This document shows, one piece after another, positions 1,771 to 63,828 of a stretch of DNA of 64,000 bases. The stretch covers positions 55,326-119,325 of the forward strand of contig DXIH01000070.1 of the NCBI GenBank assembly GCA_019112965.1, read 5' to 3'. Position 1 is the stretch's first letter; each line of letters opens with the position of its first letter. Under the pieces are notes generated by a model. It was not told the DNA's origin. It worked only from the letters and a program-made list of their open reading frames with translations, and did no database searches. Both the position numbers and the translations under genes were made by a program. The stretch comes from Candidatus Sphingomonas excrementigallinarum. GTDB taxonomy: Bacteria; Pseudomonadota; Alphaproteobacteria; Sphingomonadales; Sphingomonadaceae.

Positions 1771-1790
1771 TGTGTGTCAGTGACTATGCA
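1771..1790 (-). promoter_or_regulatory. Class A intergenic element, copy 1
   Basis: Minus-strand copy of the asymmetric 20-bp family (TGCATAG TCACTG ACACACA). It ends 17 bases before the kinase ATG, with the ribosome-binding site in between, and abuts the TGA of the upstream Nudix gene. Extra GT repeats extend it to 1765. Confidence 0.75.
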
Positions 1791-1791
1791 G

Positions 1792-2451
1792 TCACGACGA
1801 AGGAAGCGAGAGGATAAGACGGGTCCACGTCTCCAGCTCGACGACGCCAGCGACCGAGTCGGTGAACAGTCCGTCCGCACTGACGAAGCGGGCGTTCTCG
1901 ATCACGTCCTCGAACTTGGCCGGGTCGATGTTCGGGAGCGCCGACACGTCGATCTGGGCGACGAGCCCGATATGCACGCGATCGACGGGCGTATCGTCGG
2001 CGCTGATGATGTGCGTCCACTTCACGAGCTTGCTGCGGAGGTCGGGCATGGTGCCCGTGAAGCTGATGCCCAGCTCCTCCTCCAGCTCGCGGATGCAGGC
2101 GTTCTCCATCGTCTTGCGCAGGTCGATGATGCCGTCGCCGGTGTAGTGGGCGTCGGTGCCATCGACGTGACCGCCGAAGCCGATCGCGACCTTGCTGTGC
2201 AGGCGAGCATCACCGCCACCAGCGCCACGCTCGTATGCGAGCACCTCGTCACCGCGGCGGATGACGATGTAGGGGATGGGTTGCACGAAGTCGGGCGACT
2301 CCTCCAGCACCGGGCGCGGGGCGATCCAGACCTGGCCCTCGTCGAGCGTGTGGTCGATCGACCACTCATGGTCCAAGATGCCGAAGCCCAGCTTGCCCTC
2401 GGTTTCGAGCGACGCGCGACGGATCGCGACAATGTGTGCGAGCTTGGACAT
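1792..2451 (-). CDS. Nudix-type phosphohydrolase
   Basis: 219 residues. A Nudix box is visible: GFGGHVDG (about residues 105-112) followed, after a short insertion, by the helix ENACIRELEEELGI with the REL-x-EELG core that binds the divalent metal. Nudix enzymes hydrolyse nucleoside diphosphates linked to another group; in phages they usually act on (d)NTPs or NAD-like compounds. The ATG at 2451 overlaps the ThyX stop by one base (TGATG). A longer open frame upstream lies inside ThyX and is a shadow. Substrate unknown. Confidence 0.7.
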   Translation of the reverse strand: MSKLAHIVAIRRASLETEGKLGFGILDHEWSIDHTLDEGQVWIAPRPVLEESPDFVQPIPYIVIRRGDEVLAYERGAGGGDARLHSKVAIGFGGHVDGTDAHYTGDGIIDLRKTMENACIRELEEELGISFTGTMPDLRSKLVKWTHIISADDTPVDRVHIGLVAQIDVSALPNIDPAKFEDVIENARFVSADGLFTDSVAGVVELETWTRLILSLPSS

Positions 2452-3347
2452 CAGAAGCGTCCGAACTCGGCTTCGAGCACCGCCAGGCCGTCGTTGCCAA
2501 GCGACGAGACGAAGTCCGCGAAGAACTGCGGGGCGTGGCTGCGCGATTTGGCGAGCAGCTGCGGCATCAGGCGGCGGATCTCCAGGTCGGCGGGCTCGGC
2601 GCCGCGCAGGGTCAGAAGGTGGCGCAGCGAGCGCAGGTTGGTGGTGAACACGAGGCGCGTCTCGGCCGCATTGGGCAGCAGGGATCGCGCGGCTTCGTTG
2701 GCGCGCTTCTTGACCGACACGATCGCGTCCTCGGACGCACCGGCCGCCTGCATGGCGCGCAGCCGCTCGACGAACTGCGTCTGGAGGTTCTGGTATTCGC
2801 GCCACGATTGGTGACACGAGCGGCGGAATATGGTCAGCTCGGGGTCGGCTTCGAGCTCCTCGTTCGACATGCCGGAGACGTGGTTGGCGAGCAGCGGCGG
2901 CAGCACGAAGCGAATGTCCTTCGCATCGACGTAGCGCTGGCTCTCCTGGCTGTATGCGGTGCCGACGCGGTGACGGATCAGCTCGTGGGTAAGCGAACGC
3001 GACACGCCGGAGACGAGGAAGACGACGTTTACGTGCTCGTAAATCGAGCCGTGCTGCTGCTCCTTGATGTTCAGATGGTAGGCGATCGAGTCGCGGCCCT
3101 TCGCGAAGCTGTTGTAGCACTGGCGGCCCGCGAACTCGGCGATGTCGTCGCCGTTGCCACCGAAGTGTGTGTCACCCGACTCGAACGTGCGAGCGAGGAT
3201 GCCGCCGATTGGCGTGTTCGGATTGGATGCTGCGTCTTCGAGGTCGAGCTGGATAACCGCGTCTTCCAGGCCGGAAATATCGAAAACGGTGCCTGCGAAC
3301 TTCGAGACCGTGGGCTCGAAGATGATCTTCTCCATCGGGATGGGCAT
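2451..3347 (-). CDS. thyX: Flavin-dependent thymidylate synthase ThyX
   Basis: 298 residues, a usual ThyX length. The ThyX signature is present as RHRVGTAYSQESQRY (about residues 136-150), matching the RHRxxSxNxxSxRY pattern that binds FAD and dUMP. ThyX makes dTMP from dUMP using FAD, NADPH and methylenetetrahydrofolate. It sits with NrdA/NrdB, a kinase and a Nudix protein in a nucleotide-supply block. Start chosen at ATG 3347; an alternative ATG lies four codons in (3335). The upstream region 3348-3504 holds a promoter and a class A element. Confidence 0.92.
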   Translation of the reverse strand: MPIPMEKIIFEPTVSKFAGTVFDISGLEDAVIQLDLEDAASNPNTPIGGILARTFESGDTHFGGNGDDIAEFAGRQCYNSFAKGRDSIAYHLNIKEQQHGSIYEHVNVVFLVSGVSRSLTHELIRHRVGTAYSQESQRYVDAKDIRFVLPPLLANHVSGMSNEELEADPELTIFRRSCHQSWREYQNLQTQFVERLRAMQAAGASEDAIVSVKKRANEAARSLLPNAAETRLVFTTNLRSLRHLLTLRGAEPADLEIRRLMPQLLAKSRSHAPQFFADFVSSLGNDGLAVLEAEFGRF

Positions 3348-3390
3348 GTGGGAACTGAACCTTTTTCAGAGCGTTTAGCGCGACTCGGTG

Positions 3391-3441
3391 TGTGTGTCGG
3401 TGCGCATGCAGTTTGTTACCGACTCGTTGAAATGCACGCAA
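3391..3441 (-). promoter_or_regulatory. Promoter TTGCGT-N17-TAACAA with class A element, upstream of thyX
   Basis: On the minus strand a -35-like TTGCGT (3441-3436) is followed by exactly 17 bases and TAACAA (3418-3413). Two bases later comes a variant class A element (TGCATGCGCACCGACACACA, 3410-3391). The arrangement places the element at the expected transcription start, as an operator would be. The thyX ATG is 44 bases further on. Spacing counted by eye; no experimental support. Confidence 0.5.
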
Positions 3442-3448
3442 GCGGTTT

Positions 3449-3490
3449 TGTGTCGGGTGACACACGCAGGGTGTTACTCAACCGACACAT
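3449..3490 (-). repeat. Palindromic TGTGTCGG...CCGACACA pair between nrdB and thyX
   Basis: Two inverted 8-base arms, TGTGTCGG and CCGACACA, surround a 25-base centre holding further GTGTGTCAC/GTGTTAC half-sites. The inner block 3449-3465 is itself a short palindrome (GTGTCgggtGACAC). It lies just past the nrdB stop, so it could act as a hairpin terminator (no U-run is present) or as a cluster of regulator half-sites like those in the rest of the window. Confidence 0.45.
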
Positions 3491-5436: not shown

Positions 5437-5693
5437 CAATTCAGGCTGGCGTTAAACGCGGCAACGATCGCGTTGGGGACCGCCTTGTCGGCATAGACCA
5501 CGTTCTCGTTGCGCTTGAAGCCGCGACCGCCGCGACCGGGCGCGGTGACGTGAGGATTGCTGATCTCGCCCTTGGCGTCCTTGATGTCGAAGCTGTTGCG
5601 CGTGACCTCGTGGACGCGCCACGGGCCGACGCCCGGCAGCTCGACGCGGCCGATCGGAGCGACGGTCAGCACGGTGACGGGACGATCAGCCAT
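5436..5693 (-). CDS. Hypothetical protein, 85 residues
   Basis: No family recognised. Beta-rich N-terminal half (VTVLTVAPIGRVEL) and a Gly/Arg-rich loop (APGRGGRGFKRNE, about residues 50-62). Its ATG (5693) lies inside the end of the preceding 69-residue ORF (8-base overlap), and its stop overlaps the methyltransferase start. Position suggests a methyltransferase-associated role, but this is only context. Confidence 0.6.
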   Translation of the reverse strand: MADRPVTVLTVAPIGRVELPGVGPWRVHEVTRNSFDIKDAKGEISNPHVTAPGRGGRGFKRNENVVYADKAVPNAIVAAFNASLN

Positions 5694-5895
5694 CCACCTG
5701 CTCCTCGGCTTCCGGCGCCGGGACGCCGGTGCCCGTCATGTCGTCGATCTTCATGACGTCGAGTAGGGCACGCGCCGCGGCACGGATGTGGCGAGCTCGC
5801 GCTCCCTGCGGGGTGGGCGGGGTGCTGTTGCCATACAGCATCTTCGCTTCCGACAGCACCTCGGTGCTGACGAGCACGGCATGATCCTTGTTCAT
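5686..5895 (-). CDS. Hypothetical protein, 69 residues
   Basis: First gene of its operon after nrdA. Starts MNKDHAVLVSTEVL with a GAGAGAAG ribosome-binding site just upstream; ends in an acidic tail (PEAEEQ). Helical in the middle (ARARHIRAAARALLDVMK). No family recognised. A 28-bp perfect palindromic element sits 17 bases before its ATG. Confidence 0.6.
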   Translation of the reverse strand: MNKDHAVLVSTEVLSEAKMLYGNSTPPTPQGARARHIRAAARALLDVMKIDDMTGTGVPAPEAEEQVDG

Positions 5896-5912: not shown

Positions 5913-5940
5913 GTGCGTGTGTGTTACGACACACACGCAC
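5913..5940. promoter_or_regulatory. Class B palindromic element, 12-bp arms
   Basis: Perfect inverted repeat: arms GTGCGTGTGTGT and ACACACACGCAC around a TACG centre. It is the longest uninterrupted palindrome of the family and lies between nrdA and the 69-residue gene. In DNA it can bind a dimeric regulator; in RNA it would form a strong hairpin with a UACG/CGUA tetraloop-sized loop, so a terminator-like or processing role is an alternative. Confidence 0.7.
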
Positions 5941-5953: not shown

Positions 5954-7975
5954 TTACTGGCAGGCGGCGCACTCGGGTTCGTCCACATACATCGGGCCGG
6001 GCGCTGCGGTCTCCAGCTGCGGGGTCGGCATCTCGCCAGCGAGATTGTCGACCGCCATCGCCTTCGAGATCGAGCGCGAGCGCAGGTAGTAGAGGCTCTT
6101 GAGGCCGAGCTCCCACGCCAGCTTGTGCAGGTCCGACAGATCCTTCTTGTGGACGTTCGCCGGCAGGAAGACGTTCACCGACATCGCCTGGCAGACGAAC
6201 TTCACGATCGCCGCGTGGTGCTTGATGACCCAGCGCTGGTCGATCTCGAAGGCGGTCTTGAAGGTGGCCTTCTCGAGCCGCGACAGGAACGGCAGGTGCT
6301 GCACCGACCCATCATTGATGGTGATCGAGTGCCAGACATCCTCCAGCCACTGATCCTTGCTCTCGGCCGCCAGCGGGGCGAACGCGGGCTGCTCGCGCAG
6401 CAGCAGCTGCATGTCGGGCGTCGCTTTGTTCACGGTCGCTTCCAGCTCGTCGAAGCGGCGCCGCAGCAGCGCGTCGAGGTGCGGGTTTCGGACGTTGAAG
6501 CTGCCCGACAGCGTCTTCTGGGTGAAGCTGTTCGCCGGGGTCGGCTCCAGGCACGGGCTGGCACCGCCGGCCACGATGCTGATCGACGCGGTCGGCGCGA
6601 TCGAGAAGACGTGGGTGAGGCGCTTGGCCTTGATGCTCGGGTCGATCGCCCGCGCGTCAGCGCTGTCCGGGCACTCGCCGCGCTCGGCAACCAGCACGTC
6701 CTGGCCCTTGTCCGCCGTGGTGGCGAGCCATCCCCACATGCGCGCCAGCATGTTGGTGGCCTGGATGCTCTCGAACGGCATGCCCATCGCTTGCAGCGTC
6801 GAGTGGAAGCCCATCATGCCCAGGCCGACCGAGCGCTCGCGGATCGCCGAGTAGCGGGCGCGCTCGAAGCCCTTCATGCCATCGGTGCGGTCGATGAACT
6901 GCTGGATCGTGTTGTCCAGGAAGCGCATCACGTCGAAGATGAGCTCCTCGTCGCCGAACCATTCCTTGCCGGTGTCCATGACCAGGCTCGACAGGCAGCA
7001 CACCGCGGTGCGCCAGTTGCCCAGGTGGTCGGCGCCGGTGGGCAGCGTGATCTCGGAACAGAGGTTCGACTGAACGACTTCCAGGCCGAGCGCCTTGTGG
7101 ATCTCCGGCTGGTGCTCCTTCACGCGGTCGATGAAGATGATGTAGGGCTCGCCCAGCTCCAGGCGCGCGGTGATGATCTTGATGTAGAGCTCGCGGGCAT
7201 CCACGGTGTCGGTGACCGAGCCGTCCTTCGGCGAGATCAGATCCCAGCGACGCTCGGCCGGATCATCCTTGAACACCATCTCCATGAAGGCGTCGGGCAC
7301 GAGGATGCCGTGGTGGATGTTGTGCGCCTTGCGACGCGGGTCGCCGCCCTGGTGACGACGGATGTCGACGAACTCGACGATCTCGGGGTGACGGACGTGC
7401 AGGTAGGTCGCCGCCGAGCCGCGACGCAGCGAGCCCTGGCTGATCGCTTCGGTCTGGGCGTCCTGCCAGCGCAGGAAGGGGATGATGCCGCTCGTCTTGC
7501 CCGTGATCGAGCCGGCGATCGGGTGGTTGATCTCGCGGACGTCCGACCATGCGGTGCCGATGCCGCCGCCCTTGGCCGCAAGCCAGATGTTCTCGTAGAC
7601 GGTGTCCGCGATGCTATCCATCGAGTCACCGACGCGGTTGAGGAAGCAGCTGATGGGCAGGCCGCGCTCGGTGCCCGAGTTGGTCAGCACCGGCGTCGCG
7701 GGCATGAACCACAGCTTCGAGATGGCGTCATACATGCGCTGGGCATGCCCGTTCATCACGCCGCGGATCTGCTCGTCCGAGTTGGCGATCGCCACGCGGG
7801 CGAACATGTCCTGGAAGCTCTCGCCCGGCAGGAGATAGCGGTCGCGCAGGGTCGCCTTGCCGAAGTCGGTCAGGCGGGCGTCGCGCGCGTCGTCGATGGT
7901 AATGGTCAGCGTTTCGCCGCTGGGTAGGGTGTGGTGGTAGAGGCGCGTCGTTGCGCCGGCCGCATCAGCGGTCAT
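5954..7975 (-). CDS. nrdA: Ribonucleotide reductase class I, large (catalytic) subunit
   Basis: 673 residues. Family landmarks: FMPATPVLTNSGT (about 90-102), SCFLN with the first active-site Cys, the NLCSEI loop carrying N-x-C-x-E catalytic residues, and the C-terminal ECAACQ redox CxxC pair that is reduced by thioredoxin/glutaredoxin. The N-terminus is short and lacks a recognisable ATP-cone, suggesting relaxed allosteric activity control. Start ATG 7975 has GAGGAGAA about 8 bases upstream. It works with NrdB (3505-4485). First gene after a promoter-bearing class A element. Confidence 0.95.
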   Translation of the reverse strand: MTADAAGATTRLYHHTLPSGETLTITIDDARDARLTDFGKATLRDRYLLPGESFQDMFARVAIANSDEQIRGVMNGHAQRMYDAISKLWFMPATPVLTNSGTERGLPISCFLNRVGDSMDSIADTVYENIWLAAKGGGIGTAWSDVREINHPIAGSITGKTSGIIPFLRWQDAQTEAISQGSLRRGSAATYLHVRHPEIVEFVDIRRHQGGDPRRKAHNIHHGILVPDAFMEMVFKDDPAERRWDLISPKDGSVTDTVDARELYIKIITARLELGEPYIIFIDRVKEHQPEIHKALGLEVVQSNLCSEITLPTGADHLGNWRTAVCCLSSLVMDTGKEWFGDEELIFDVMRFLDNTIQQFIDRTDGMKGFERARYSAIRERSVGLGMMGFHSTLQAMGMPFESIQATNMLARMWGWLATTADKGQDVLVAERGECPDSADARAIDPSIKAKRLTHVFSIAPTASISIVAGGASPCLEPTPANSFTQKTLSGSFNVRNPHLDALLRRRFDELEATVNKATPDMQLLLREQPAFAPLAAESKDQWLEDVWHSITINDGSVQHLPFLSRLEKATFKTAFEIDQRWVIKHHAAIVKFVCQAMSVNVFLPANVHKKDLSDLHKLAWELGLKSLYYLRSRSISKAMAVDNLAGEMPTPQLETAAPGPMYVDEPECAACQ

Positions 7976-8009: not shown

Positions 8010-8044
8010 ATTGTATCAGGGTTGTGTGTGTCAGTCACCATGCA
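8010..8044 (-). promoter_or_regulatory. Class A element with -10-like TACAAT, upstream of nrdA
   Basis: Consensus class A element (TGCATGGTGACTGACACACA, 8044-8025). Its central GTGACT (8038-8033) is followed by exactly 17 bases and TACAAT (8015-8010), a good sigma70 -10 match. If this is a promoter, the element provides the -35 region, and transcription would start about 25 bases before the nrdA ATG. Confidence 0.55.
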
Positions 8045-13867: not shown

Positions 13868-14233
13868 TTATGCGGTCGCGACGGGCACCAGCTTGCCCCG
13901 ACGCGAGAAGTTGAAGGCGAGACCGCCAGCGAGCACGACACCGCGGGTCTGGGTGCCGTCTTCGGTCAGGCGGTTCTCGCGGTTGTCGTTGATGCGCGCA
14001 GCCTGGCGGGCGCGACGCTCGATCTCGCGTGCATTGGTGTGCGGATCGAGTGTGTGTCGGTTAGCATGCACCATGCGCGTGAAAGCGCCGGCGGGCACGC
14101 GACCGAGCGCTGCCTGAACGCGGGTGGGCTGCGTTGCGAAGCGACGCGCGGCGTCATACTTCTTGCCGGCCATCTTGGCGGCGTGGGCCTCGCGACGCTC
14201 GGCGGCGGTCGCGGTGTTGGGGAAACGGGACAT
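13868..14233 (-). CDS. Basic hypothetical protein, 121 residues
   Basis: Starts MSRFPNT with AAAGG upstream; strongly basic and helical (many Arg/Lys/Ala), ending in a short beta segment. No family recognised; a nucleic-acid-binding role would fit the charge. Unusually, codons for MVHANRHTL (14051-14070) coincide with a near-perfect class A element inside the gene. Confidence 0.6.
   Translation of the reverse strand: MSRFPNTATAAERREAHAAKMAGKKYDAARRFATQPTRVQAALGRVPAGAFTRMVHANRHTLDPHTNAREIERRARQAARINDNRENRLTEDGTQTRGVVLAGGLAFNFSRRGKLVPVATA
14051..14070 (-). repeat. Intragenic class A-like element
   Basis: TGCATGCTAACCGACACACA on the minus strand, the same orientation as the intergenic copies, but lying within the 121-residue ORF. 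It shares the GACACACA right half and TGCATG left half, and the CCGACAC variant seen upstream of thyX. Confidence 0.5.
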
Positions 14234-14261: not shown

Positions 14262-14313
14262 TGTGTGTCACTCACTATGCAGTCTGTCTAGCGGTGCGCT
14301 TTCGCTTCTGCAA
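14262..14313 (-). promoter_or_regulatory. Promoter TTGCAG-N17-TAGACA with class A element
   Basis: On the minus strand TTGCAG (14313-14308), 17 bases, then TAGACA (14290-14285), followed three bases later by a class A element (TGCATAGTGAGTGACACACA, 14281-14262). The element's TAG (14277-14275) is also the stop codon of the upstream gene. It precedes the ATG at 14233. Same geometry as the thyX promoter. Confidence 0.5.
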
Positions 14314-18485: not shown

Positions 18486-18505
18486 TGTGTGTCAGTTACT
18501 ATGCA
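18486..18505 (-). promoter_or_regulatory. Class A element upstream of SSB gene
   Basis: Consensus copy (TGCATAGTAACTGACACACA) 39 bases before the SSB ATG. No good -10 is seen at 17 bases from GTAACT. Confidence 0.75.
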
Positions 18506-19112: not shown

Positions 19113-19147
19113 TGTGTGTGTTGTAACGCACACACTCGGGACGTCAA
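19113..19147 (-). promoter_or_regulatory. Class B element with TTGACG-N15-TTACAA
   Basis: Near-palindrome GTGTGTG-N8-CACACAC (19114-19135). On the minus strand TTGACG (19147-19142) precedes TTACAA (19126-19121), which lies at the centre of the palindrome; the 15-base spacer is shorter than in the other class B promoters. It precedes the ATG at 19095 by 17 bases. Confidence 0.5.
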
Positions 19148-23150: not shown

Positions 23151-23162
23151 ACTCGCAATCAT

Positions 23163-48308: not shown

Positions 48309-48328
48309 TGTGTGTCAGTTACCATGCA
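48309..48328 (-). promoter_or_regulatory. Class A element upstream of NlpC/P60 gene
   Basis: Consensus TGCATGGTAACTGACACACA, 19 bases before the ATG, just past the stop of the L-like gene. A TAGGAT lies 15 bases after GTAACT. Confidence 0.75.
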
Positions 48329-53444: not shown

Positions 53445-53464
53445 TGTGTGTCAGTGCCTATGCA
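53445..53464 (-). promoter_or_regulatory. Class A element upstream of tape measure gene
   Basis: TGCATAGGCACTGACACACA; its TAG (53460-53458) is the stop codon of the GT-like frame. It ends 20 bases before the tape measure GTG. Confidence 0.72.
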
Positions 53465-54152
53465 CCTCGGCTAAAGCGCTCCTGGAGTTCCTTGAACTTC
53501 TCCGCATCGAAGCGCTTTTCGATGACGACGGGAGCATCCAACTCGAGCCGGAGGCTCTCGATAAGATTGGCTGCCGCCTCGGGTGTCTGCATCGCTGCCG
53601 CGATGCGCATTTGCCGCTGATCTCGCTCGGCGCGGAGCCGGTCGATCTGGCGGTTGAAGGACCAGAAGGTGCGGAGCGGGAGCTTCCTGACTTCCTCGTA
53701 GGTCATTCCGTATTCCGCGCTGACGCGGGCCACGAAGAACGGGAAGTCGATCTGCTTTAGCTCTGCACCGCCTCCGCGTTTCCCTCCGCACTCGGCGCGA
53801 CGCCTTCGCCCTCATCGGGGGAGCCAGCCTCGTTCACCTGCTCGCTCATCTCGTTCAGCCAGGCGAACACGATGAACAGCTTGGGGGTGGGCAGCTCGCC
53901 GACCGGCAGGGTCGGGAAGAACTCGCTGATGCTGTCGCGGATCAGCTCCAGCACCTCGACCATGTCCTTGTCGCCGGCTTCCTCGGCTTCCTCGGCCATC
54001 TTCTGCTGGCGCAGCGCGCGCTTCTGCTGCTCGATGAAGGCGTCGACGGTCAGGACGCGCATGAAGTGCGGCGTGCCTTCGTGAACGATCTTGATCTCGC
54101 TCTGCGCGGTCTCCAGGTCGTCGAGGTTCAGAATCTTGGGATCGTTTGCCAT
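53458..54152 (-). CDS. Tail assembly chaperone GT-like fusion made by -1 frameshift
   Basis: The G-like frame (54152-53757) and the T-like frame overlap, and the T-like frame has no convincing start of its own. The -1 frame is open from the GGGAAAC heptamer (53784-53778) through the G stop to TAG 53458. The T part (KQIDFPFFVARVSAEYGMTYEEVRKLPLRTFWSFNRQIDRL...) resembles tail-assembly chaperone C-terminal extensions. As in lambda, a small fraction of ribosomes should make this GT form, which coats the tape measure and recruits tail protein. Position directly before the tape measure gene is diagnostic. Confidence 0.8.
53757..54152 (-). CDS. Tail assembly chaperone G-like
   Basis: 131 residues, helical, acidic C-terminus (SPDEGEGVAPSAEGNAEAV). 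Central KMAEEAEEAGDKDMVEVLELIRDSISEFFPTLPVGELPTPKLFIVFAWLNEM typical of tail chaperones. ATG 54152. Contains near its end the slippery heptamer GGGAAAC, from which the GT form is made. Confidence 0.8.
   Translation of the reverse strand: MANDPKILNLDDLETAQSEIKIVHEGTPHFMRVLTVDAFIEQQKRALRQQKMAEEAEEAGDKDMVEVLELIRDSISEFFPTLPVGELPTPKLFIVFAWLNEMSEQVNEAGSPDEGEGVAPSAEGNAEAVQS
53778..53784 (-). other. -1 ribosomal frameshift site GGGAAAC
   Basis: Zero-frame reading is G GGA AAC, the canonical X XXY YYZ slippery heptamer, 7 codons before the G stop. After a -1 slip the frame continues through CGC GGA GGC GGT GCA GAG to the T-like region. It differs by only the last base from lambda's GGGAAAG. Confidence 0.8.
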
Positions 54153-54177: not shown

Positions 54178-54230
54178 GGGGAGGGGAGGAGCGAAGCCCC
54201 TCCCCCGTTGTGCGTGTCACTCAACACGCA
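54178..54230 (-). terminator. Class B element followed by G-rich hairpin after major tail protein gene
   Basis: Class B element TGCGTGTTGAGTGACACGCA (54230-54211, perfect 7-bp arms) sits 7 bases after the tail protein stop. Then comes a 9-bp stem GGGGAGGGG/CCCCTCCCC (54205-54178, read on the minus strand with a 10-base loop), but only a weak T-run (TTAG). The G-like gene starts 26 bases later. Probably a partial terminator lowering G/GT/tape measure expression relative to the tube protein. Confidence 0.55.
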
Positions 54231-54236: not shown

Positions 54237-54752
54237 TTACGCCGCGGCCGGGTCGCCCATGACGAACAGCTCGCCGCTGGTCAGGTCGACGAAGCCCTCG
54301 AACTCGACGGCGAAGACCTTCTGGTCGTCGTGCTTGAAGGCGAACGAGAAGTCGCCCTTCACCGACGCCAGGCTGATCGTCACGTCCTTCGACTTGTCGC
54401 CATCGGCCGCCGCGATCGGGTGCAGGACCAGCTCGCCCGCCAGCTTGCGCAGCGAGGTGCCGACCGCCGACTTCACGACGAGCTTCTTGGCCGCGCCGGT
54501 GCCGACCAGGGCCGAGCCGGGAACGCAGGCTGCCAGCTTGGTCAGGTCGTTCTCGGCCATCGGGAACTTCACCTTGACCGAGCGGCCCTTGATGACGTTG
54601 TCGACGACGGTGTCGCCGAACTGGTCGACGGTGATCGCGGTGACCTCGGTGGCGAACTCGACCTCGACGCCGCCCTTGGTCAGGCCAAGGTCGGTGCCCT
54701 TATAGGTGCCCTTGCACGGCCCCATCTCCAGGTTTTCGTAGTTGCTCGGCAT
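54237..54752 (-). CDS. Major tail (tube) protein
   Basis: 171 residues, beta-rich, typical of siphophage tube proteins: opens MPSNYENLEMGPCKGTYKGTDLG, then KGGVEVEFATEVTAITVDQFGDTVVDNVIKGRSVKVKF-type sheet strands and a C-terminal FAFKHDDQKVFAVEFEGFVD. Position before G/GT-tape measure supports this. AGGAG six bases before ATG 54752. Own promoter element upstream and hairpin downstream suggest high expression. Confidence 0.82.
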   Translation of the reverse strand: MPSNYENLEMGPCKGTYKGTDLGLTKGGVEVEFATEVTAITVDQFGDTVVDNVIKGRSVKVKFPMAENDLTKLAACVPGSALVGTGAAKKLVVKSAVGTSLRKLAGELVLHPIAAADGDKSKDVTISLASVKGDFSFAFKHDDQKVFAVEFEGFVDLTSGELFVMGDPAAA

Positions 54753-54783: not shown

Positions 54784-54818
54784 ATGATAGCACGATTGTG
54801 TGTGTCAGTCACCATGCA
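54784..54818 (-). promoter_or_regulatory. Class A element with -10-like TATCAT, upstream of major tail protein gene
   Basis: Consensus TGCATGGTGACTGACACACA (54818-54799). Its GTGACT (54812-54807) is 17 bases from TATCAT (54789-54784), and the ATG is 32 bases further. The element's TGACTGA also supplies the stop codon of the preceding gene (54807-54805). Confidence 0.6.
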
Positions 54819-56778: not shown

Positions 56779-57605
56779 CCGCGGACGGCTCCGATGTTGA
56801 AGACGACATAGCGGCGCAGCTCCTCGTAGGCTTGCCGCGTGATCGGCAGGTTGAGGTAGGGCTTCGAGTTGAAGAAGGCGCTGCTCTCGCCGATTGACTC
56901 CGAGATGATGCCGTCCTGACGCTTGTTGCCGACGATGTCGCCGCCCAGGATGACGTTCGCCTCGATCAGCTGGGCGCGCTTGAGCGCCTTGACGAAGCCG
57001 GCGGGCAGGGCGTCGAACTGCTCGATCGACATGCCGCGCAGCCGGACCCGGCGGGTGAAGCCGAAGGGCTCGTCGGTCCCGGTGCCATAGGCGGCATAGC
57101 TGGACGCATGCACCATCGGGTCGATGAAGCCGACCTTGTAGACCATACGGTTCAGGCGCTCATAGGCATCGGCCAGCGCGCTCGATCGCGTCTCGCGATC
57201 GGTCACCGCATCCCAGCCGTCGAGCGTCGGCCCGAAGCTCGCGCGGATCGCCAGCACCTCGGGATAGGTCATGAAGCTGTTGCCCAGCAGCTTGAGCGGC
57301 TGGTTGTCGATCAGGAGGAAATAGTCGCGCAGCTCCACCTCGCCGCCGGCCGTCGCCAGCGTGACCACAATCTCGCGGCCCGCGCTGGGGACGTTGGTGG
57401 GGAGGGCGAGCGCGGTTGCCTCGATCTCGAACGTGACGGTGTCGGCCGCTGCGTCGAAGTCGGCGACCACGCCCGCGTCGATCGACACGCCACGCTCATC
57501 GAACAGCTCCCACGAAGCGGAGGTGCCCTCGACCTTCACACCGGCGTCGTCGACCACCGAGACGGTGAACGACGACGAGCGGCCAGCTGTCCGATTGCTC
57601 TGCAT
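56775..57605 (-). CDS. Head-tail connector-like protein with Ig-like N-terminus
   Basis: 276 residues. Residues 1-100 look like an Ig-like beta domain (SSSFTVSVVDDAGVKVEG...), followed by a helical part (ALADAYERLNRMVYKVGF) with MTYPEVLAIRASF. C-terminal half helical with PFGFTRRVRLRGMSIEQF. Position directly after the capsid-associated gene suggests a gp6-type adaptor, but similarity is not certain. Confidence 0.5.
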   Translation of the reverse strand: MQSNRTAGRSSSFTVSVVDDAGVKVEGTSASWELFDERGVSIDAGVVADFDAAADTVTFEIEATALALPTNVPSAGREIVVTLATAGGEVELRDYFLLIDNQPLKLLGNSFMTYPEVLAIRASFGPTLDGWDAVTDRETRSSALADAYERLNRMVYKVGFIDPMVHASSYAAYGTGTDEPFGFTRRVRLRGMSIEQFDALPAGFVKALKRAQLIEANVILGGDIVGNKRQDGIISESIGESSAFFNSKPYLNLPITRQAYEELRRYVVFNIGAVRG

Positions 57606-58129
57606 TACGCGACCGCCTGGCTGGTCTGCGCCTTGAGGATCTCGTTCACCAGCTCGGTGATGCCGCGACCCTTGACGTTGAGCGGCTTGGCGATGTCACG
57701 TAGGCCCTGGATGCCGTTGTTGGCGCCGATCGCTTCGAGCTCGGCCCGCGTGTAGACGACGATCTCCGTCTCCTTGCGCTCGGCGGCGGCATTGGCTTCG
57801 GCTTCGGCCAGCGCAGCCTTCTCCTCGGCCTTGCGCTTGACTTCGGCGGCGGCCAGCGCGGCGCGCTCGCGCTCCTGGTCGACCTTCACGACGTCCAACG
57901 TCTTGACGACGGGTGCGGTCGGCAGCGGCTTGCCCTGGAGCAACAGCGCCACCTGGGCCGGGCCAACCTGCTCGCCGGTCTCGGCGTCGACGATGCGCAC
58001 GCTGGAGCCGATGCGCGCGATCTGGCGGGCGTTCAGGTCATTGACCGACACGCCATCCTTGAACGGGGTCTGGAAACCGAAGTTTCCCGAGAACTTGTCC
58101 CAGCCTGCGCTGGTGATGCGAACCTTCAT
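57605..58129 (-). CDS. Head-associated protein with SAP/Rho-N-like C-terminus
   Basis: 174 residues. The middle is an Ala/Glu/Lys coiled coil (about 88-125, KVDQERERAALAAAEVKRKAEEK). The last 45 residues (YTRAELEAIGANNGIQGLRDIAKPLNVKGRGITELVNEIL) fit the SAP/Rho N-terminal fold. In many phages such proteins follow the capsid gene; role may be head decoration or nucleic acid contact. First gene after the capsid terminator. Confidence 0.55.
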   Translation of the reverse strand: MKVRITSAGWDKFSGNFGFQTPFKDGVSVNDLNARQIARIGSSVRIVDAETGEQVGPAQVALLLQGKPLPTAPVVKTLDVVKVDQERERAALAAAEVKRKAEEKAALAEAEANAAAERKETEIVVYTRAELEAIGANNGIQGLRDIAKPLNVKGRGITELVNEILKAQTSQAVA

Positions 58130-58144: not shown

Positions 58145-58218
58145 GAAAAGGGGCCGGGACTTGCCCGACCCCCTCCCAGGGCAACGATGGAACTGTTGTG
58201 CGTGTCAGTCAACACGCA
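58145..58218 (-). terminator. Capsid gene terminator preceded by class B element
   Basis: Element TGCGTGTTGACTGACACGCA (58218-58199, perfect 7-bp arms) lies 7 bases past the capsid stop. Downstream is the intrinsic terminator: stem GGGGTCGGG/CCCGGCCCC (58172-58150) followed by TTTTCGTTT. The next gene starts 16 bases later. The same order (element, then hairpin) occurs after the tube gene. Confidence 0.75.
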
Positions 58219-58225: not shown

Positions 58226-59128
58226 TCAGATGTTGGTGATACCCTTGAGGCGGGCCAGCGACTTGGTCGACTTGAGCGCCGTGCCGACATACCACTTCAT
58301 GCGGTAGCGCTCGACGTCCTTGTTCTGGACCGTGCCGACGTGGCTGACGCGCAGACCGGCCTGGGGGCCACCGAAGATGCCGTGCATGCCGTCCGCCTCG
58401 TTGAAGCGCACCGCGTAGATCGAGGCGGTCTTGGTGCCCGCGGCGTGAACTTCGTCACCCGGCAGGAAGTCGTTGATGATGATCGGCGTGCGGCGATAGG
58501 CCGGCACGTTGATCCCGGTGCCCGGCAGCGTGACGTGGTCCGGCGTGGTGCCGCCCAGGTTGCGCAGCATGGCGAGGATCGCGTCGTGCGTGCCGCCGCG
58601 CATCACCAGCGCATCGGCGCCCAGCGGGACCGCGCGCAGCAGCTGGTCGAGGCGCTCGAAGGTCAGCGCTTCGCCGTCGCCATCGGCCGAGATCACCTGG
58701 TTGTCCGCGCAGAGCTCGGCGATGCCGTCGAACGACTTCGGGTCGGTGCCCGAGTTGCCGGTCGCCAGCGTGCGCTGGAACTTGCGCGACATGCCCTTCG
58801 CCTTCGCCGCGATCTGGATCGCGGTCTGGTCGTTGGTGTCCGACATGGTCTCGTCGAGGAAGTTGTCGATGTCGACGTCGCCGATCAGGATGCGCAGCTT
58901 CGCCACGACCTCGTCGAAGTCGGCGCCGCCTTCCGGCACGACGTCGTAGGGATCGAGGAACGCGCCCTCGGACAGCGACTTCTCGCGGTTGTAGACGTAG
59001 GCCTTGCCGACGATGCGCTTGAAGGGCAGCAGCGCGAACATGGCGTCGTTGTCGATGATCTCCTCGATCACACCCTGCTCCAGGATGTTGTTCGAGAGCT
59101 TCTCGGCTTCAACACGAAGCAGGGGCAT
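58226..59128 (-). CDS. Major capsid protein
   Basis: 300 residues from ATG 59128 (GGAG six bases upstream; a second ATG three bases earlier is possible). HK97-fold features: N-terminal long helix and FLDPYDVVPEGGADF, then YGD-like spine region LRILIGDVDIDNFLDE, ALVMRGGTHDAILAMLRNLGGTTPDHVTLPGTGINVPAYRRTPIIINDFLPGDE (P-domain/A-domain pattern), and VRFNEADGMHGIFGGP. Order portal-scaffold-capsid and own strong terminator support the call. No N-terminal delta/protease region, so a separate scaffold is expected. Confidence 0.85.
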   Translation of the reverse strand: MPLLRVEAEKLSNNILEQGVIEEIIDNDAMFALLPFKRIVGKAYVYNREKSLSEGAFLDPYDVVPEGGADFDEVVAKLRILIGDVDIDNFLDETMSDTNDQTAIQIAAKAKGMSRKFQRTLATGNSGTDPKSFDGIAELCADNQVISADGDGEALTFERLDQLLRAVPLGADALVMRGGTHDAILAMLRNLGGTTPDHVTLPGTGINVPAYRRTPIIINDFLPGDEVHAAGTKTASIYAVRFNEADGMHGIFGGPQAGLRVSHVGTVQNKDVERYRMKWYVGTALKSTKSLARLKGITNI

Positions 59129-59144
59129 CATTCTCTCCAGTCTG

Positions 59145-59164
59145 TGTGTGTCAGTCACCATGCA
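59145..59164 (-). promoter_or_regulatory. Class A element upstream of the capsid gene
   Basis: Consensus TGCATGGTGACTGACACACA, ending 16 bases before the capsid ATG. Its GTGACT is 17 bases from GAGAAT, a weak -10. Confidence 0.7.
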
Positions 59165-59204: not shown

Positions 59205-59245
59205 ATGATAGCAAATCCGCCTTGTGTGTGCAAGCACACACAAGG
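59205..59245 (-). promoter_or_regulatory. Promoter TTGCAC-N17-TATCAT with perfect 12-bp-arm class B palindrome
   Basis: Palindrome CCTTGTGTGTGC-aa-GCACACACAAGG (59220-59245). On the minus strand TTGCAC (59233-59228), 17 bases, TATCAT (59210-59205). Together with the class A copy at 59145 it gives the capsid gene a double control region. Confidence 0.6.
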
Positions 59246-59259: not shown

Positions 59260-60078
59260 TCAGCCGCGGAGCTTCGCGAGGCCCGCCGACAGCTTCGAGA
59301 TGCGGTCGGTCGGCACGTCCTTGACCTTGCCGTCCTGCGTCGTCGAGCCGGCGCCCGGCTTGACCTTGGACTTGAGGAAGGAGTCCTTGTCGGGCTCGTT
59401 CTCGAAGACCTTCTTCATCGCGTCGTCGAACGACAGGGGCTTGCCCTTGGTGTCCATCACGACCGCGCGCTTGGCCGCCGTCTTGGGCGCGTCATAGACC
59501 ACGGCGACGCCGTTCTCGATCTCGACATAGTCGCCATACAGACGCTCGGCGCGATCGGCGGTGAGAATCGTCTCGGTCGCGAAGAACTTGCTCTTGGCGA
59601 AGGCGGCCTCGCGGCGCGCGGAGGCGGCATCTGCAACGGCCTGGGCCGCGCGGGTGCGCTCGTTGTCGCGCTCGGTCTGGGCCGCGGTCAGTTGGGCCTG
59701 GTGCTCCTCGTTCTGGAGCTCGCGCAGGCGCTCGAAATTGCCCTCGGCCTGGGCCTTGGCGGTCTCGGCGTCGCGCGCGGCCTTCTCGGCGTCGGCGACC
59801 TTCTTGGCGTTGGCCTTGGCGACCTCGGGGTCGATACCGTCGAACTTGGCGGCGGCGGCCTGCGCAGCGGCCAGATCAGCGCGCAGCTGTGCGATCTCCT
59901 CGGCGGTGGGCGCCTGGGTCTGCTCCTGCTGCTGTTGCTGCTGTTCCTGCTGCTGTTCCTGCTGGCCCTGGCCGCCCTCGTTGGGGTGACCGTCCGGCGA
60001 ACGCATGAGCCGGCCCTTGGCGCGTTCGGCAGGCGTCATGCGAAAGCCGCGGGCGGCGATCATGCTGTTCTTCTTCAT
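59260..60078 (-). CDS. Scaffold-like coiled-coil protein
   Basis: 272 residues from ATG 60078. Disordered basic start, a Gln-rich tract (about residues 40-52, QQEQQQEQQQQQQEQ), a long Ala/Glu/Arg coiled coil (about 58-165), and a C-terminal region KSKVKPGAGSTTQDGKVKDVP. This is the shape of internal scaffolding proteins and it lies between portal and capsid. No serine-protease motif visible, so it is probably a pure scaffold. Confidence 0.75.
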   Translation of the reverse strand: MKKNSMIAARGFRMTPAERAKGRLMRSPDGHPNEGGQGQQEQQQEQQQQQQEQTQAPTAEEIAQLRADLAAAQAAAAKFDGIDPEVAKANAKKVADAEKAARDAETAKAQAEGNFERLRELQNEEHQAQLTAAQTERDNERTRAAQAVADAASARREAAFAKSKFFATETILTADRAERLYGDYVEIENGVAVVYDAPKTAAKRAVVMDTKGKPLSFDDAMKKVFENEPDKDSFLKSKVKPGAGSTTQDGKVKDVPTDRISKLSAGLAKLRG

Positions 60079-60108
60079 TCTGACCTTTACCTGAAATGGC
60101 TTACTGGT

Positions 60109-60144
60109 TTGTGTAATGTAACACACACAACCCTAGTGCCGCAA
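60109..60144 (-). promoter_or_regulatory. Promoter TTGCGG-N17-TTACAT with class B element upstream of scaffold gene
   Basis: Minus strand TTGCGG (60144-60139), 17 bases, TTACAT (60121-60116) in the centre of the class B element (60130-60109). The -35 overlaps the foot of the terminator hairpin 60142-60168. Confidence 0.55.
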
Positions 60145-60168: not shown

Positions 60169-60172
60169 CCTA

Positions 60173-61846
60173 TCAGGAGGCCGGCTGGGTGACCTTCTTG
60201 GCACGACGCTTGTCAGCGCCAGCCTTGTCATCGGCCTTCACCGAGCCCTTGTTGTTCTCGCCCTGGCTGTTGCCCTTGCCGGGGACGCGACCCTTGCCGA
60301 GCGTCGGCTGCTCACCGATCGCGCCGGCCACGTCGAGCTCCGGCGTCTCCAGCCAATCGTTGTCGATGTCGTCCTCGATCTCCTTGATCTCGGCGGCGTC
60401 GGCCTGCGGGAACATCTTGTTGGCGACGCGCTTCATCTGCTTGCGGCGCAGCGCCTTGGGGGCGTTGATGACCGACATGCGCTGGGCGTTGTCCATCTCG
60501 TCGGCCAGATTGCGGACGTCGAAGGTCTGCGGATAGGTGACCAGCTCGTCGACCTCCTGGAGCTCCTCGACCTTGCCCGACCAGGCGTTCACCAGGCGGA
60601 TCAGGTTGTGCTCGATGTTCTGGAGGCTGCGCGCCTTAGCCGCGAGCATGGCGTTGAGCTGCTCGAAGTCATAGGCCTTCGCGACGCCCGACGAATTGTC
60701 GATGCCGGCCGCGTTGTCTTCCTTCGTGCGCTCGCCGGCCATGCCGATCGAGTGGTATATCTCGCCAACGATCTTGGTGACCGCCTTGAGGATCATCTCC
60801 GGCTGGGCGACGTCGGGCGAGATGTATTGCGGGGCGGCGCCGCCTTCCGCGTTGTAGGCGAAGACACGCTTGGTGCCCATCACCTGAATGTTGGTCATCT
60901 CCTCGTCGTCGGGGTTCGCCTCACCATCGCCCGAGCTTCCCTCGGTCGGCAGCATGCCCTGGAACGGGATCGCCAGCTGGGAGAAGGTCTGGTCGGTGAT
61001 GATGACGTCGAGACACGACAGGTAGTTGGCGACCGTGCGGTCCATGTAGGCCACGTCCTCGACGAGACCGTCCACCTTGTAGAGCTCGTCGGAGGTGATG
61101 TGGTCGGCCGGGAATACCGGCACCAGGCCCAGGTTGTGCTCGCGGATCGACTGCGGGTCGAGGGTCGCGATGCGCTCGCCGTCCTTGACCGCGACGGTCA
61201 CGACGCAGGTGAACTCCTTGGTCCACAGCCGGAAGCGCTCGGACACCGCGCCGCTGGACGTCAGCGGATTGCTGTCGTCGCGCGCGAACTCGCCGTTCAT
61301 GAACCATTCGAGCTCGCCGTCTTCGTCGTAGGCGAAGTCGTAAGCCTGCATCGGCTTGAGAAAATAGCTGTAGGTGCGGCCCTTGGACGCCTTGCGGTCG
61401 GCCTCGGTCACCACGGTCTCGGGGACGTTGTTGTCGACCACGACCCAGATGCGGCCGAAGGTGCTCGACCACAGGGAGATCGTGCTCATCAGGTCGGCGA
61501 TCGGCCGCTTGAGGAGCGTCGCTGCGCCCCAGAACTCCTTCACCGCCTCCGGCAGCGTCTCGCGGCGCTCGATCGAGCCCTTGAAGACATATTTGTTGAC
61601 GAGACTGACCACCTCCTTGGAGTGCGGGAAGCGATAGGCGCGCTTCTTGCGCTCGGCGAACTCCCGCTTGCCCTCCTTGGGGTAGGTGAAGATGTTCTGC
61701 TCGATCCAGGAGCGGCCGCCCTTGTAGCAGGCCTCCAGGAAGCGCCAGTGATCCAGGTTGTCCTGGTATTCGGGGTGCCGGCGGTCGACCAGATGCAGGA
61801 GCTGGTCGTTGGATGCCGACTTGAGGGATGCGAGATCGAGCGCCAT
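60173..61846 (-). CDS. Portal protein
   Basis: 557 residues. Typical portal layout: helical N-terminus, a beta wing/stem region (YSYFLKPMQAYDFAYDEDGELEW), PVFPADHI and PMILKAVTKIVGEIYHSIGMAG helices, long alpha stem, and a charged disordered C-terminus (GKGRVPGKGNSQGENNKG, KRRAKK). The ring at one capsid vertex through which DNA is packaged. Between terminase and scaffold genes; ATG 61846. Confidence 0.88.
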   Translation of the reverse strand: MALDLASLKSASNDQLLHLVDRRHPEYQDNLDHWRFLEACYKGGRSWIEQNIFTYPKEGKREFAERKKRAYRFPHSKEVVSLVNKYVFKGSIERRETLPEAVKEFWGAATLLKRPIADLMSTISLWSSTFGRIWVVVDNNVPETVVTEADRKASKGRTYSYFLKPMQAYDFAYDEDGELEWFMNGEFARDDSNPLTSSGAVSERFRLWTKEFTCVVTVAVKDGERIATLDPQSIREHNLGLVPVFPADHITSDELYKVDGLVEDVAYMDRTVANYLSCLDVIITDQTFSQLAIPFQGMLPTEGSSGDGEANPDDEEMTNIQVMGTKRVFAYNAEGGAAPQYISPDVAQPEMILKAVTKIVGEIYHSIGMAGERTKEDNAAGIDNSSGVAKAYDFEQLNAMLAAKARSLQNIEHNLIRLVNAWSGKVEELQEVDELVTYPQTFDVRNLADEMDNAQRMSVINAPKALRRKQMKRVANKMFPQADAAEIKEIEDDIDNDWLETPELDVAGAIGEQPTLGKGRVPGKGNSQGENNKGSVKADDKAGADKRRAKKVTQPAS

Positions 61847-61854: not shown

Positions 61855-61890
61855 AGTATAGCCGATATTGTGTGTGTTGTCACACACAAG
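61855..61890 (-). promoter_or_regulatory. Promoter GTGACA-N17-TATACT with class B element upstream of portal gene
   Basis: Class B palindrome CTTGTGTGTGACAACACACACAA (minus strand, 61890-61868). Inside it GTGACA (61883-61878) is 17 bases from TATACT (61860-61855), a near-consensus -10. The portal ATG is 9 bases past the -10, so the leader is very short unless a later start or alternative register is used. Confidence 0.55.
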
Positions 61891-61896: not shown

Positions 61897-63156
61897 TTAA
61901 AACGACCAGCCCACCAGCTTGCGGAAGCGATTGCCGTAGAGATAGTGGATCGGATAGCCGAGTGCGTCGCACATGTGCTCGGTGCCCTGGCTCTTGTCGA
62001 CCGTGGGCGTGCCCGCCTTGTAGATCGTCTGGTTGAGGCTCTCGATCAGGTGCTTGCAGCGCTCGTCGACGAACAGCCGGCTATCGCCCTCGGCGTTCTG
62101 GAACATGCCGTTGACGATCGCCACGCGGTCGGCGACCAGCGGGTGCTTCTTCTTGTAGAGCAGCTTGTTGAAGCCGCGCGAGCGGAACACGTCGAGGTCG
62201 CTCTCGCCGCGGCTCGAATTGCGGTTCGCGCCGGCGGGGTCGGGGTAAAGCGTGATCTGGCGCTTGTGCCGGAAGTAGCGGCGCTCGATCTCGTCGCACA
62301 CCTCGGGCACGTTCGAGCTGGGCAGCTTGATCTCGTCGACGACCCAGACCTGACCGTTCGCCTGCTCCTGCATGATGACGCTCGACATCGGATCGACGTT
62401 GAAGTCCTGCCCGATGATGATCGGCAGATGCGGGTTGAACGGGTAGGTGCCGACGTGCTTCTTCTGGTCGAAGGCGTAGTAGACGCGCCCCGACATGCTC
62501 TCGAAGCTCGCCTCGAACTCCTGACGGAAGGTCTTCGGGTCCAGGTTTTCGCGCGCGTGCTTGATCTCGCTCGGCGGGAAGAACGGCGACATGATCGTCG
62601 GGAACTGCCACGACATCCACTGGCCGCTGGCCTGGTTCTTCTTGATCTGGCCCTTGGCGTAGAGCTCGTAGAAGTGGTTGTAGCTCTTGGGCGTGCCGAT
62701 GATGAGGGCGCGACCCTTCGTCGTCGTCAGGGTCGGGTAGAGCACCTTCTCCCACACGTCGGGCCGGAAGTCCTGGAACTCGTCGCAGATGCAGAAATGC
62801 AGGGCGCGACCGCGGAGCGTGTCCGGTCGGTCGGCACCCTTGAGCTGGATGACGGTGCCGTTGATGAGACGGATCTCGAGCCGCGTCTCGTGCTTCTTCA
62901 AAATCCACGATTGCGGGAGAGCCTCGATCAGCTCGTCCCACATAATCTCGCGCGCCATCGAGAACGTCGGCGCCACATACCAGATGGTGCGGCGGCCCTT
63001 GCCCTTGGCTGACCGGATCAGCTCGATACGCGACAGGTGGGTCTTGCCGAAGCGTCGGCCGGCGACCAGCGTGCGGAAGCGGGCAGGGTGGCGAAAGACC
63101 GCTGCCTGACCGTGGTGCAGCTTGAGGTCGATCTTGGGGACCGGGAAGTAGCTCAC
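61897..63156 (-). CDS. terL: Terminase large subunit
   Basis: 419 residues, GTG start. ATPase: Walker A VAGRRFGKTHLS (about 31-42), Walker B LHFCICDEFQDFRP (about 122-135), coupling motif IIGTPKSYNHFYELY (about 152-166). Nuclease: IIIGQDFNVDPMSSV (first Asp, about 247-261), and C-terminal DALGYPI. It drives DNA into the prohead and cuts the concatemer. Five bases after the small subunit stop. Confidence 0.95.
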   Translation of the reverse strand: MSYFPVPKIDLKLHHGQAAVFRHPARFRTLVAGRRFGKTHLSRIELIRSAKGKGRRTIWYVAPTFSMAREIMWDELIEALPQSWILKKHETRLEIRLINGTVIQLKGADRPDTLRGRALHFCICDEFQDFRPDVWEKVLYPTLTTTKGRALIIGTPKSYNHFYELYAKGQIKKNQASGQWMSWQFPTIMSPFFPPSEIKHARENLDPKTFRQEFEASFESMSGRVYYAFDQKKHVGTYPFNPHLPIIIGQDFNVDPMSSVIMQEQANGQVWVVDEIKLPSSNVPEVCDEIERRYFRHKRQITLYPDPAGANRNSSRGESDLDVFRSRGFNKLLYKKKHPLVADRVAIVNGMFQNAEGDSRLFVDERCKHLIESLNQTIYKAGTPTVDKSQGTEHMCDALGYPIHYLYGNRFRKLVGWSF

Positions 63157-63161
63157 GGCGA

Positions 63162-63743
63162 CTAGCCCTCCTGGCTGTCGTCGTCGCCCTGGTCGTCCTG
63201 TGCGGGGTCTTCCTCCAGGCCTTCGAGGTAGGATTCCTCGTTGCCCTGGCGGATCGCTTCCAGCTCCTCCTCGCTGTATTCGCCGACGTTGAGGTCGGGC
63301 AGCTCGGCGCCTTCACCCAGCAGATCTTCGATCCCCAGGATCTCCCAGCTCTCACGACGCGCCTTCTCGACGATGGCGGTGGCGTTCTTGAGCGTCAGGA
63401 CTTCGGCGTTGACGGTCGCGATGTTCCCGTTGGTGTTGGCCGTGATGACCTTGTTCATCGTCAGCTTGGCGAGAGCCTCATACCACTTGGCATACTGCTC
63501 GACCGCCAGCCCGGCGTTCTGAACCTTGCGCTCGCGCTCCCGGCGCGCAGCGTCATCCACCTCGTTCGTCACCTCGTCGAGCCGCGAACCCTTCTCGATA
63601 CCGCGGGCCTTGAGGCCCTTCTGGATCGCTTGCGGGCTGACGCCGAACTGGTCGGCGAGCTCGCGGAGGTTCTTCTCGCCGCGCTCGTAGAGCGTGACGA
63701 CGGTAGCCCAATCGGACGGGGACAGACGAGACTGCGCAGCCAC
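63162..63743 (-). CDS. terS: Terminase small subunit
   Basis: 193 residues. N-terminal helix-turn-helix KNLRELADQFGVSPQAIQKGLKARGIEKG (about 25-53), central coiled coil, and a strongly acidic C-terminal tail (SEEELEAIRQGNEES, DDQGDDDSQEG) for contact with the large subunit. It recognises the packaging site. GTG start (63743), GGAG about 12 bases upstream. Confidence 0.85.
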   Translation of the reverse strand: MAAQSRLSPSDWATVVTLYERGEKNLRELADQFGVSPQAIQKGLKARGIEKGSRLDEVTNEVDDAARRERERKVQNAGLAVEQYAKWYEALAKLTMNKVITANTNGNIATVNAEVLTLKNATAIVEKARRESWEILGIEDLLGEGAELPDLNVGEYSEEELEAIRQGNEESYLEGLEEDPAQDDQGDDDSQEG

Positions 63744-63790
63744 GACCTATCGCACTCCGGGGGCAACAGAAAGGGACAGGTCGATGCGCA

Positions 63791-63828
63791 TTGTGTGTAA
63801 CGTAACACACAAACCCCGCTCGACGCAA
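63791..63828 (-). promoter_or_regulatory. Promoter TTGCGT-N17-TTACGT with class B element upstream of terminase operon
   Basis: Minus strand TTGCGT (63828-63823), 17 bases, TTACGT (63805-63800). The -10 is the centre of the palindrome TTGTGTGT-N6-ACACACAA (63791-63812). Best example of the class B promoter geometry. Confidence 0.6.

Follow-up and report, generated by a model that had tools for sequence, protein, structure and literature searches.

Dispersed near-palindromic elements in a Sphingomonas prophage as probable operators of a lineage-diverging immunity repressor

What reads the short TGTGTGT/ACACACA elements that recur across 64,000 nucleotides of the genome of Candidatus Sphingomonas excrementigallinarum? 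This stretch (hereafter the window) comprises bases 55326-119325 of contig C8 (119,325 bp) in a genome of 3.65 Mb and 199 contigs, and is part of a prophage of ~112 kb if contigs C8 and C126 join. An earlier note had described the elements as a dedicated phage control system, dispersed and formally comparable to the stoperators of mycobacteriophage L5, and had put forward the helix-turn-helix (HTH) protein encoded at 28103-28681 for a binding test; our analysis agrees with this description and supports the HTH protein as the likely reader. We conclude that the elements are very probably the dispersed operators of one lineage-diverging prophage immunity repressor, which would block many operons directly. 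The best candidate for this repressor is the HTH protein, which would bind as a dimer to 20-bp near-palindromes of half-site TGYRTG, with TGCATGGTAACTGACACACA as a candidate binding sequence.

The elements are far more frequent in the prophage than chance would provide, the check that the earlier note had proposed. Under a strict rule (right arm ACACACA with left arm TGTGTGT or TGCATRG, at most one mismatch in 14) the prophage part of C8 (101,425 bp) has 39 sites, of which the window holds 26, and that of C126 has 5, against none in each of 10 first-order shuffles and none in the host flanks (17.9 kb and 7.2 kb). A relaxed rule finds 57 sites in the C8 prophage (shuffles 3-9). A matrix built from the 15 asymmetric (class A) sites of the earlier note gives 35 matches in C8 against 0-4 in shuffles, a weaker test because it was trained on those same sites. 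All 15 class A coordinates match their consensus (24878 has TGTGTGG for TGTGTGT, and 3391 and 33588 depart mid-site), and all 13 coordinates of the palindromic class B are recognisable, with 44215 weak (TATGTGACGTTCAACACACA) and 23132 touching a start codon.

Placement follows operon structure. We called genes with our own script instead of a standard program, so starts and upstream gaps are approximate. Noncoding DNA makes up 10% of the prophage, and of the 39 strict sites only two lie wholly inside called genes (14051 in the window and C8:24200 outside it), with seven partly overlapping. A start codon lies within 150 nt for 37 of the 39 (within 60 nt for 32 of these 37; median 26), and the ACACACA arm is turned toward the gene in 34 of the 37. 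A strict site occurs within 100 nt upstream of 31 of 63 genes preceded by a gap above 35 nt, of 1 of 8 with gaps of 6-35 nt, and of 0 of 77 that overlap their neighbor or follow within 5 nt. Many copies of one site thus lie at phage promoters, the arrangement found in dispersed-operator prophage repression.

The division into two classes does not hold. We compared the arms over 42 strict sites from C8 and C126. Read inward, the right arm rarely departs from TGTGTGT, and the left arm reads T, G, C (27) or T (15), A (26) or G (16), T, G; both arms therefore fit the half-site TGYRTG. Sites 54211 and 58199 (TGCGTGTTGACTGACACGCA) bridge the two forms, and classes A and B are variants in a continuum of one near-palindrome. 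In the close relatives G398 and G399, viral contigs whose terminases are 90% and 87% identical to that of the window, many orthologous genes keep the ACACACA arm but have a changed left arm, in many cases one closer to TGTG; at other genes there is no site. The earlier note had held that absence from close relatives would speak against the family. The class A pattern, with up to two mismatches, indeed has no match in G397 (13.6 kb) or G398 and four in G399, but the broader motif is enriched in both G398 (6 strict and 38 relaxed sites) and G399 (17 and 27). An RNA hairpin was considered and rejected: class B could pair in RNA and class A could not (judged by eye), so a DNA operator is preferred.

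The prophage has many relatives with which these sites can be compared. Flanks resembling host chromosome (translations judged by eye) occupy C8 1-17.8 kb and C126 1-7.2 kb; the remainder of both contigs is prophage, with a tyrosine integrase at C126:7246-8310 on the prophage side. Gene content (DnaE-like polymerase, CobS/CobT, SbcC-like protein, ribonucleotide reductase, lambda-like tail genes and terminase) and protein matches place it near the SSU5- and RHEph10-like phages and phage-plasmids: TerL is 53-57% identical to those of SSU5, RHEph10, ANB28 and nickie, and the polymerase 35-42% identical to 20 records among the matches listed. Gene-by-gene matches recover the related terminase, DnaE-like polymerase, CobS/CobT, primase/helicase and common order that mark this supercluster. 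Plasmid maintenance as a lysogen, a further mark of the supercluster, is not found here: the prophage lies between host-like genes on C8 and C126 and has a tyrosine integrase, and a copy in Sphingomonas sp. NFR04 lies within an 856-kb contig, so we call it related to, and not itself, a phage-plasmid. The NFR04 prophage (L168; terminase 90% identical) is the closest named element found, which by itself points to a sphingomonad host, and a 21,257-bp stretch of it is identical to the same stretch of G398. Chromosomal, integrase-bearing members, in the window genome and in NFR04, thus occur within a group best known as plasmids. The terminase was found in 2 of 397 genomes of the bacterial family, one being the source genome itself, and loci searches with the polymerase or with the HTH protein gave no relative in viral contigs. 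Among 72,556 plasmid records, 975 have a related terminase, in every case less than 60% identical, so elements of the wider kind are not rare.

Distant relatives carry dispersed sites with other letters. No strict site occurs in RHEph10, N1_10, B1VFA, a Methylobacterium plasmid, ANB28, SSU5 or nickie. Palindromes of 18 bp are instead dispersed through RHEph10 and N1_10 (TNANTCAATATTGANTNA; 36 and 39 sites), B1VFA (TAAGTAAG-NN-CTTACTTA; 39 sites, none inside genes) and the Methylobacterium plasmid (TAAGTCAG-NN-CTGACTTA; 47 sites, 43 outside genes), against 0-3 in shuffles. Homologues of the HTH protein accompany such sites. A seven-member profile (A2) matched 22 of 24 related records, picked from 155 loci, at E 3.8e-11 to 9.6e-62. 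Twenty of the 22 were searched de novo for palindrome clusters (G400, the same element as G398, and G423, whose region was not fetched, were left out), and all 20 had one, of 4-21 sites, each above its own five shuffles (1-5); the margin was at least 3 in 19 and one in Morganella. Of the records with no HTH match, L112 (1 versus 1-2) and ANB28 (2 versus 2-3) had no cluster above shuffles, and nickie (5 versus 2), SSU5 (20 versus 2) and a betaproteobacterial metagenome-assembled genome (5 versus 1) lay above them; in the last, absence of the gene is uncertain because the genome is a draft. The Xenorhabdus loci L175, L177 and L184 showed no cluster clearly over shuffles; the HTH gene search took in the record of L184, which has a match and stands outside the 20 above, and not L175, L177 or L181, among others. 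On these comparisons a dispersed-operator architecture appears to recur through the SSU5-like group with changing specificity, and many SSU5-like phage-plasmids would share the arrangement, each lineage with its own operator sequence and a repressor that has diverged.

Changes in the HTH family go with changes in its putative operators, the pattern to be expected if the two set immunity specificity. We aligned 28 proteins and called operator bases by hand, leaving out Ectothiorhodospira and Morganella. Residue 54 (window numbering), the first of the recognition helix, ranks top of 108 columns for the choice of C or A at half-site base 6 in 23 lineages (Fisher 2.8e-4): lineages with Asn have A in six cases and C in none, and those with other residues have A in two and C in 15. 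At residue 56, 24 of the 25 non-sphingomonad lineages have Asn (one has Gln), and all three sphingomonad phages, whose operators differ too, have Val.

The sites also coincide with promoter-like sequences. Across 184 sites from six related phages, including two close pairs, a two-box sequence (-35, spacer of 16-18, -10) lies within 26 bp of the operator centre in the direction of the gene in 26 cases and in reverse in one. Hexamers resembling -35 boxes recur at offset -16 (12 versus 1 reverse) and -22 (18 versus 1), and -10-like hexamers at -14 (27 versus 10; paired sign test 0.008); a -10-like box at +7 joined with a -35 box at -16 occurs 9 times against 0. Of 99 sites, 14 have TTG at -15 relative to the start of the element, a hint of TTGC-N16-TNANTG, and near the operator at 24834-24853 TTGCAC stands 16 nt before TAACTG (by eye). 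We rejected CTGACA as a -35 box, since at some sites only 13-14 nt separate the element from the start codon. Operators would thus overlap or abut operon promoters, and a repressor bound over or beside them would block RNA polymerase directly; an activator would not be expected there. Early, replication and late operons would be silenced alike, in a flat, one-step immunity circuit.

SSU5 and Cyrano offer a natural comparison. The Cyrano homologue CYRAN_45 (E 2.4e-19 to the HTH profile) occupies the same genomic slot as the window gene, and Cyrano has palindromic TAAGTAAG-like sites; the differences are that the gene lies on the opposite strand beside an integrase and that the operator letters are others. 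SSU5, which we take to be lytic, has no HTH profile match at E<=10 and is not among nine tblastn matches of CYRAN_45. Of the orthologous genes, 18 carry an operator in both, 2 in Cyrano only, 2 in SSU5 only and 56 in neither. Together with the helix/operator covariation, the site comparison gives indirect support to silencing by a repressor bound at the sites. It counts as supporting evidence only, because the AT-rich pair has a high pattern background (36 and 32 sites versus shuffles of 8-15 and 2-10) and because the sites kept in SSU5 may reflect close descent. CYRAN_45 has been labelled a putative repressor, with expression listed at 10-fold over the prophage background, in a paper in which a text search for “operator” finds nothing (PMC9928086).

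What kind of protein is the candidate? The window gene (28103-28681, minus strand) encodes 192 aa of XRE/Cro-CI-like type, with weak PHROG matches to transcriptional regulators and repressors and orthologues of 62-66% in G398 and G399. A profile of these three finds its best other matches in RHEph10, the Methylobacterium plasmid, N1_10 and B1VFA (E 1.3e-4 to 0.016), in each of which one small gene stands between the HTH and CobT-like genes, as in the window. The HTH domain is detectable as PF01381 above the curated cut-off in the B1VFA (4.8e-07) and Methylobacterium (1.6e-05) members and below it in five others; there is no Pfam name beyond generic HTH and no meaningful NCBIfam match. Seven members show no peptidase match at E<=1 that would indicate a LexA/CI-type C-terminal S24 domain. 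The three sphingomonad members have 191-192 aa and five others, fully translated, 128-147 aa (one start uncertain); the extra part matches no named domain. A profile search of the PDB gave weak HTH matches only (best E 0.0024), and a single-sequence fold, all helical with mean pLDDT 60, was not used for conclusions. The noncoding control region of the gene (28682-28967, minus strand) has, by eye, several TGTG half-sites such as TGTGTGTCGTAACAAGTGCG after TTGACT-N16-TAGTCA; G398 and G399 have a comparable TTGAC/TGTGTGT arrangement. DNA binding, dimerisation, repression and a role in lysogeny are what we infer for this protein.

The predicted operators of the window lie on the minus strand, one weak element excepted. 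Those of class A form stand at 1771-1790 (16 nt before the start of 1128-1754), 3391-3410 (43 nt before the thymidylate synthase-like gene 2451-3347), 8025-8044 (49 nt before 5954-7975, ribonucleotide reductase large chain), 14262-14281 (28 nt before 13868-14233), 18486-18505 (39 nt before 17394-18446, gp32-like DNA-binding protein), 27633-27652 (14 nt before 26323-27618, CobT-like), 33588-33607 (14 nt before 33133-33573), 34606-34625 (21 nt before 34414-34584), 48309-48328 (19 nt before 47912-48289), 53445-53464 (20 nt before 49342-53424, tape measure-like), 54799-54818 (46 nt before 54237-54752, upstream of the -10-like hexamer TATCAT) and 59145-59164 (13 nt before 58226-59131, major capsid-like). 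The CobS-like AAA gene 23565-24797 has two, at 24834-24853 (36 nt before it) and, with the TGTGTGG variant, at 24878-24897. The DnaB-like gene 30056-31384 likewise has two, one of class B at 31394-31413 (9 nt) and one of class A at 31443-31462.

Further class B operators are predicted at 5918-5937 (22 nt before 5686-5895), 19115-19134 (19 nt before 18541-19095), 33056-33075 (26 nt before 32238-33029), 44188-44207 (15 nt before 36175-44172, tail fibre-like, 2665 aa), 59223-59242 (upstream of TATCAT; its palindrome is also present upstream of the orthologue in G398 and G399), 60108-60127 (29 nt before 59260-60078), 61869-61888 (upstream of TATACT, 22 nt before the portal-like gene 60173-61846) and 63792-63811 (a near-perfect palindrome 48 nt before 63162-63743, upstream of terminase). 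The site at 23132-23151 touches the start codon of 22560-23132, and the intermediate sites are 54211-54230 (58 nt before 53757-54152) and 58199-58218 (69 nt before 57605-58129). Under the relaxed rule there are also a weaker upstream candidate at 3447-3466 (CGTGTGTCACCCGACACAAA), a weak one at 35084-35103 (GTTATGTTGACTGACACACA; 26 nt before 34668-35057), a weaker second element before 36175-44172 at 44213-44232 (plus strand; 44215 in the earlier note) and, under that rule only, an intragenic element in the direction of transcription at 49117-49136 (TGCGTTCTATCTGACACACA) within 48977-49339.

Could the elements be phage-specific promoters, read by a phage sigma factor or polymerase? The oriented class A motif just 5' of ribosome-binding sites would suit this, as would sigma-70-like genes in RHEph10 (near the polymerase gene, L026 39826-40461), N1_10, B1VFA, ANB28 and the Methylobacterium plasmid; nickie has no such match. 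We nevertheless consider it improbable. No sigma-like match at E<=1 occurs on C8, C126, G399 (a partial record) or SSU5, although each of these has sites (the search was for sigma factors, not for other phage polymerases), and ANB28 has a sigma-like gene and no dispersed palindrome cluster above shuffles; the sigma-like genes of the relatives do not track the sites. The elements are moreover near-palindromic, and ordinary two-box sequences overlap them in relatives, so the suggestion of a phage-specific promoter sequence is not upheld. Window ORF 22560-23141 was rejected as a sigma factor: it lies in the slot of the sigma-like gp045 of RHEph10 but is not homologous. In G398, a sigma-family profile match at 65118-65366 (E 4.9e-7), at the end of a CobT-like ORF, is either chance or a real HTH tail.

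We give somewhat less credence to stoperators, at which a repressor halts elongation as in the cluster A mycobacteriophages. Dispersed sites, with one orientation in 34 of 37, recall them. So does the intragenic element at 14051-14070 (minus strand, TGCATGCTAACCGACACACA; strict rule) within 13868-14233, which points in the direction of transcription, has counterparts in the orthologous ORF of G398 (52895) and G399 (58801), and is either an internal promoter or a true stoperator. Yet only 2 of 39 strict sites are wholly intragenic and none of the 77 tightly linked genes has one, the sites are nearly palindromic (fully so in several copies in relatives), and promoter-like boxes overlap them in the gene's direction. 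A shade less plausible again is an activator role, in which the HTH protein would switch on lytic or late transcription at the sites and not repress it. Some late sites (61869, 54799) do precede a -10-like hexamer that, by eye, has no evident -35, but many end 13-30 nt before the start codon, where activators are not normally functional; SSU5 is on record as a phage despite lacking the HTH gene, and CYRAN_45 is expressed in the lysogen (PMC9928086). A host regulator such as CtrA, whose sites are reported in several alphaproteobacterial phages (PMC9437464), deserves almost no weight: its motif TTAA-N7-TTAA differs from the element, the pattern TGCATNGTNACTGACACACA (one mismatch) occurs in 1 of 298 family genomes, the source genome itself, and operators differ among phages of one bacterial class.

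Several points weigh against operators of one HTH repressor. The case is computational. About half of the genes with a gap above 35 nt have no strict site, so of the earlier claim that elements mark nearly every operon start the placement stands and the extent does not. The class A left arm, TGCATGG, breaks the symmetry. The window protein has no Pfam match at E<=0.001. Of 20 fetched regions, 15 have the HTH gene on a contig equal in length to the terminase contig, and the other 5 have the two genes on different contigs. The residue 54 pattern was spotted by eye before it was tested, on hand-made base calls and lineages that are not independent, with descent uncorrected; Ancylobacter (Ser) and Paracoccus (Thr) have A against the rule. 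A majority of the 184 sites lack a two-box match, and two pairs among the six phages are closely related. A fixed -10 position at +7 taken alone was rejected (36 sites versus 43 in the reverse-strand control), and the +7 peak is partly built in because the operator ends in TA. At the sphingomonad sites the standard -10 matrix gives no clear peak, and a -10 box is hard to recognise.

Dispersed operators are already known from P1, L5 and SPbeta. In P1, the immunity repressor C1 serves 22 operators dispersed over a phage-plasmid genome (PMC8546580), a likeness to the single repressor proposed here. P1 sites are asymmetric 17-mers, unlike the near-palindromes of the window, and P1 late genes are reached through the activator Lpa, whereas window sites also stand at structural genes. 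The L5 clade has ~26 dispersed stoperators whose motif varies with the repressor among related phages (PMC9283540, PMC6550527), as in the SSU5-like group. The likeness to L5 is one of dispersed form: in the L5 type a monomer binds asymmetric 13-mers, in contrast to the window's near-symmetric sites (TGYRTG in both arms), the full palindromes of its relatives and a presumably dimeric protein, and most of those 13-mers are not promoter-associated, whereas window sites lie mostly at operon starts (31/63, 1/8 and 0/77; 26 versus 1 of 184). The SPbeta repeat SPBRE lies between genes and proved in later work to be where the master repressor MrpR binds as its operator (PMC10516654), the role we infer for the window element; MrpR has a tyrosine-recombinase-like fold, a 15-bp motif and about ten promoters, and the window candidate is an HTH protein. 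A title and abstract search of open-licence PMC papers found none on operators or repressor sites of SSU5-like phage-plasmids, and the terms “repressor” and “operator” were absent from two phage-plasmid papers that were text-searched.

We think it likely that one small, peptidase-less HTH family governs the whole SSU5-like supercluster through 20-47 near-symmetric operators, placed on the promoters of many operons, those of late genes among them. Silencing would be one-step, and immunity type would shift by one helix co-evolving with dozens of sites; the sphingomonad lineage would be the largest switch seen (outer half-site TAAGT to TGTGT, Asn56 to Val). Such a system would offer an explanation for SSU5, in which the gene is lacking and the sites are kept. 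The group would form a natural series of joint change between one helix and some 20-47 sites in each genome, and a repressor with a readable operator set would allow immunity groups to be predicted from sequence.

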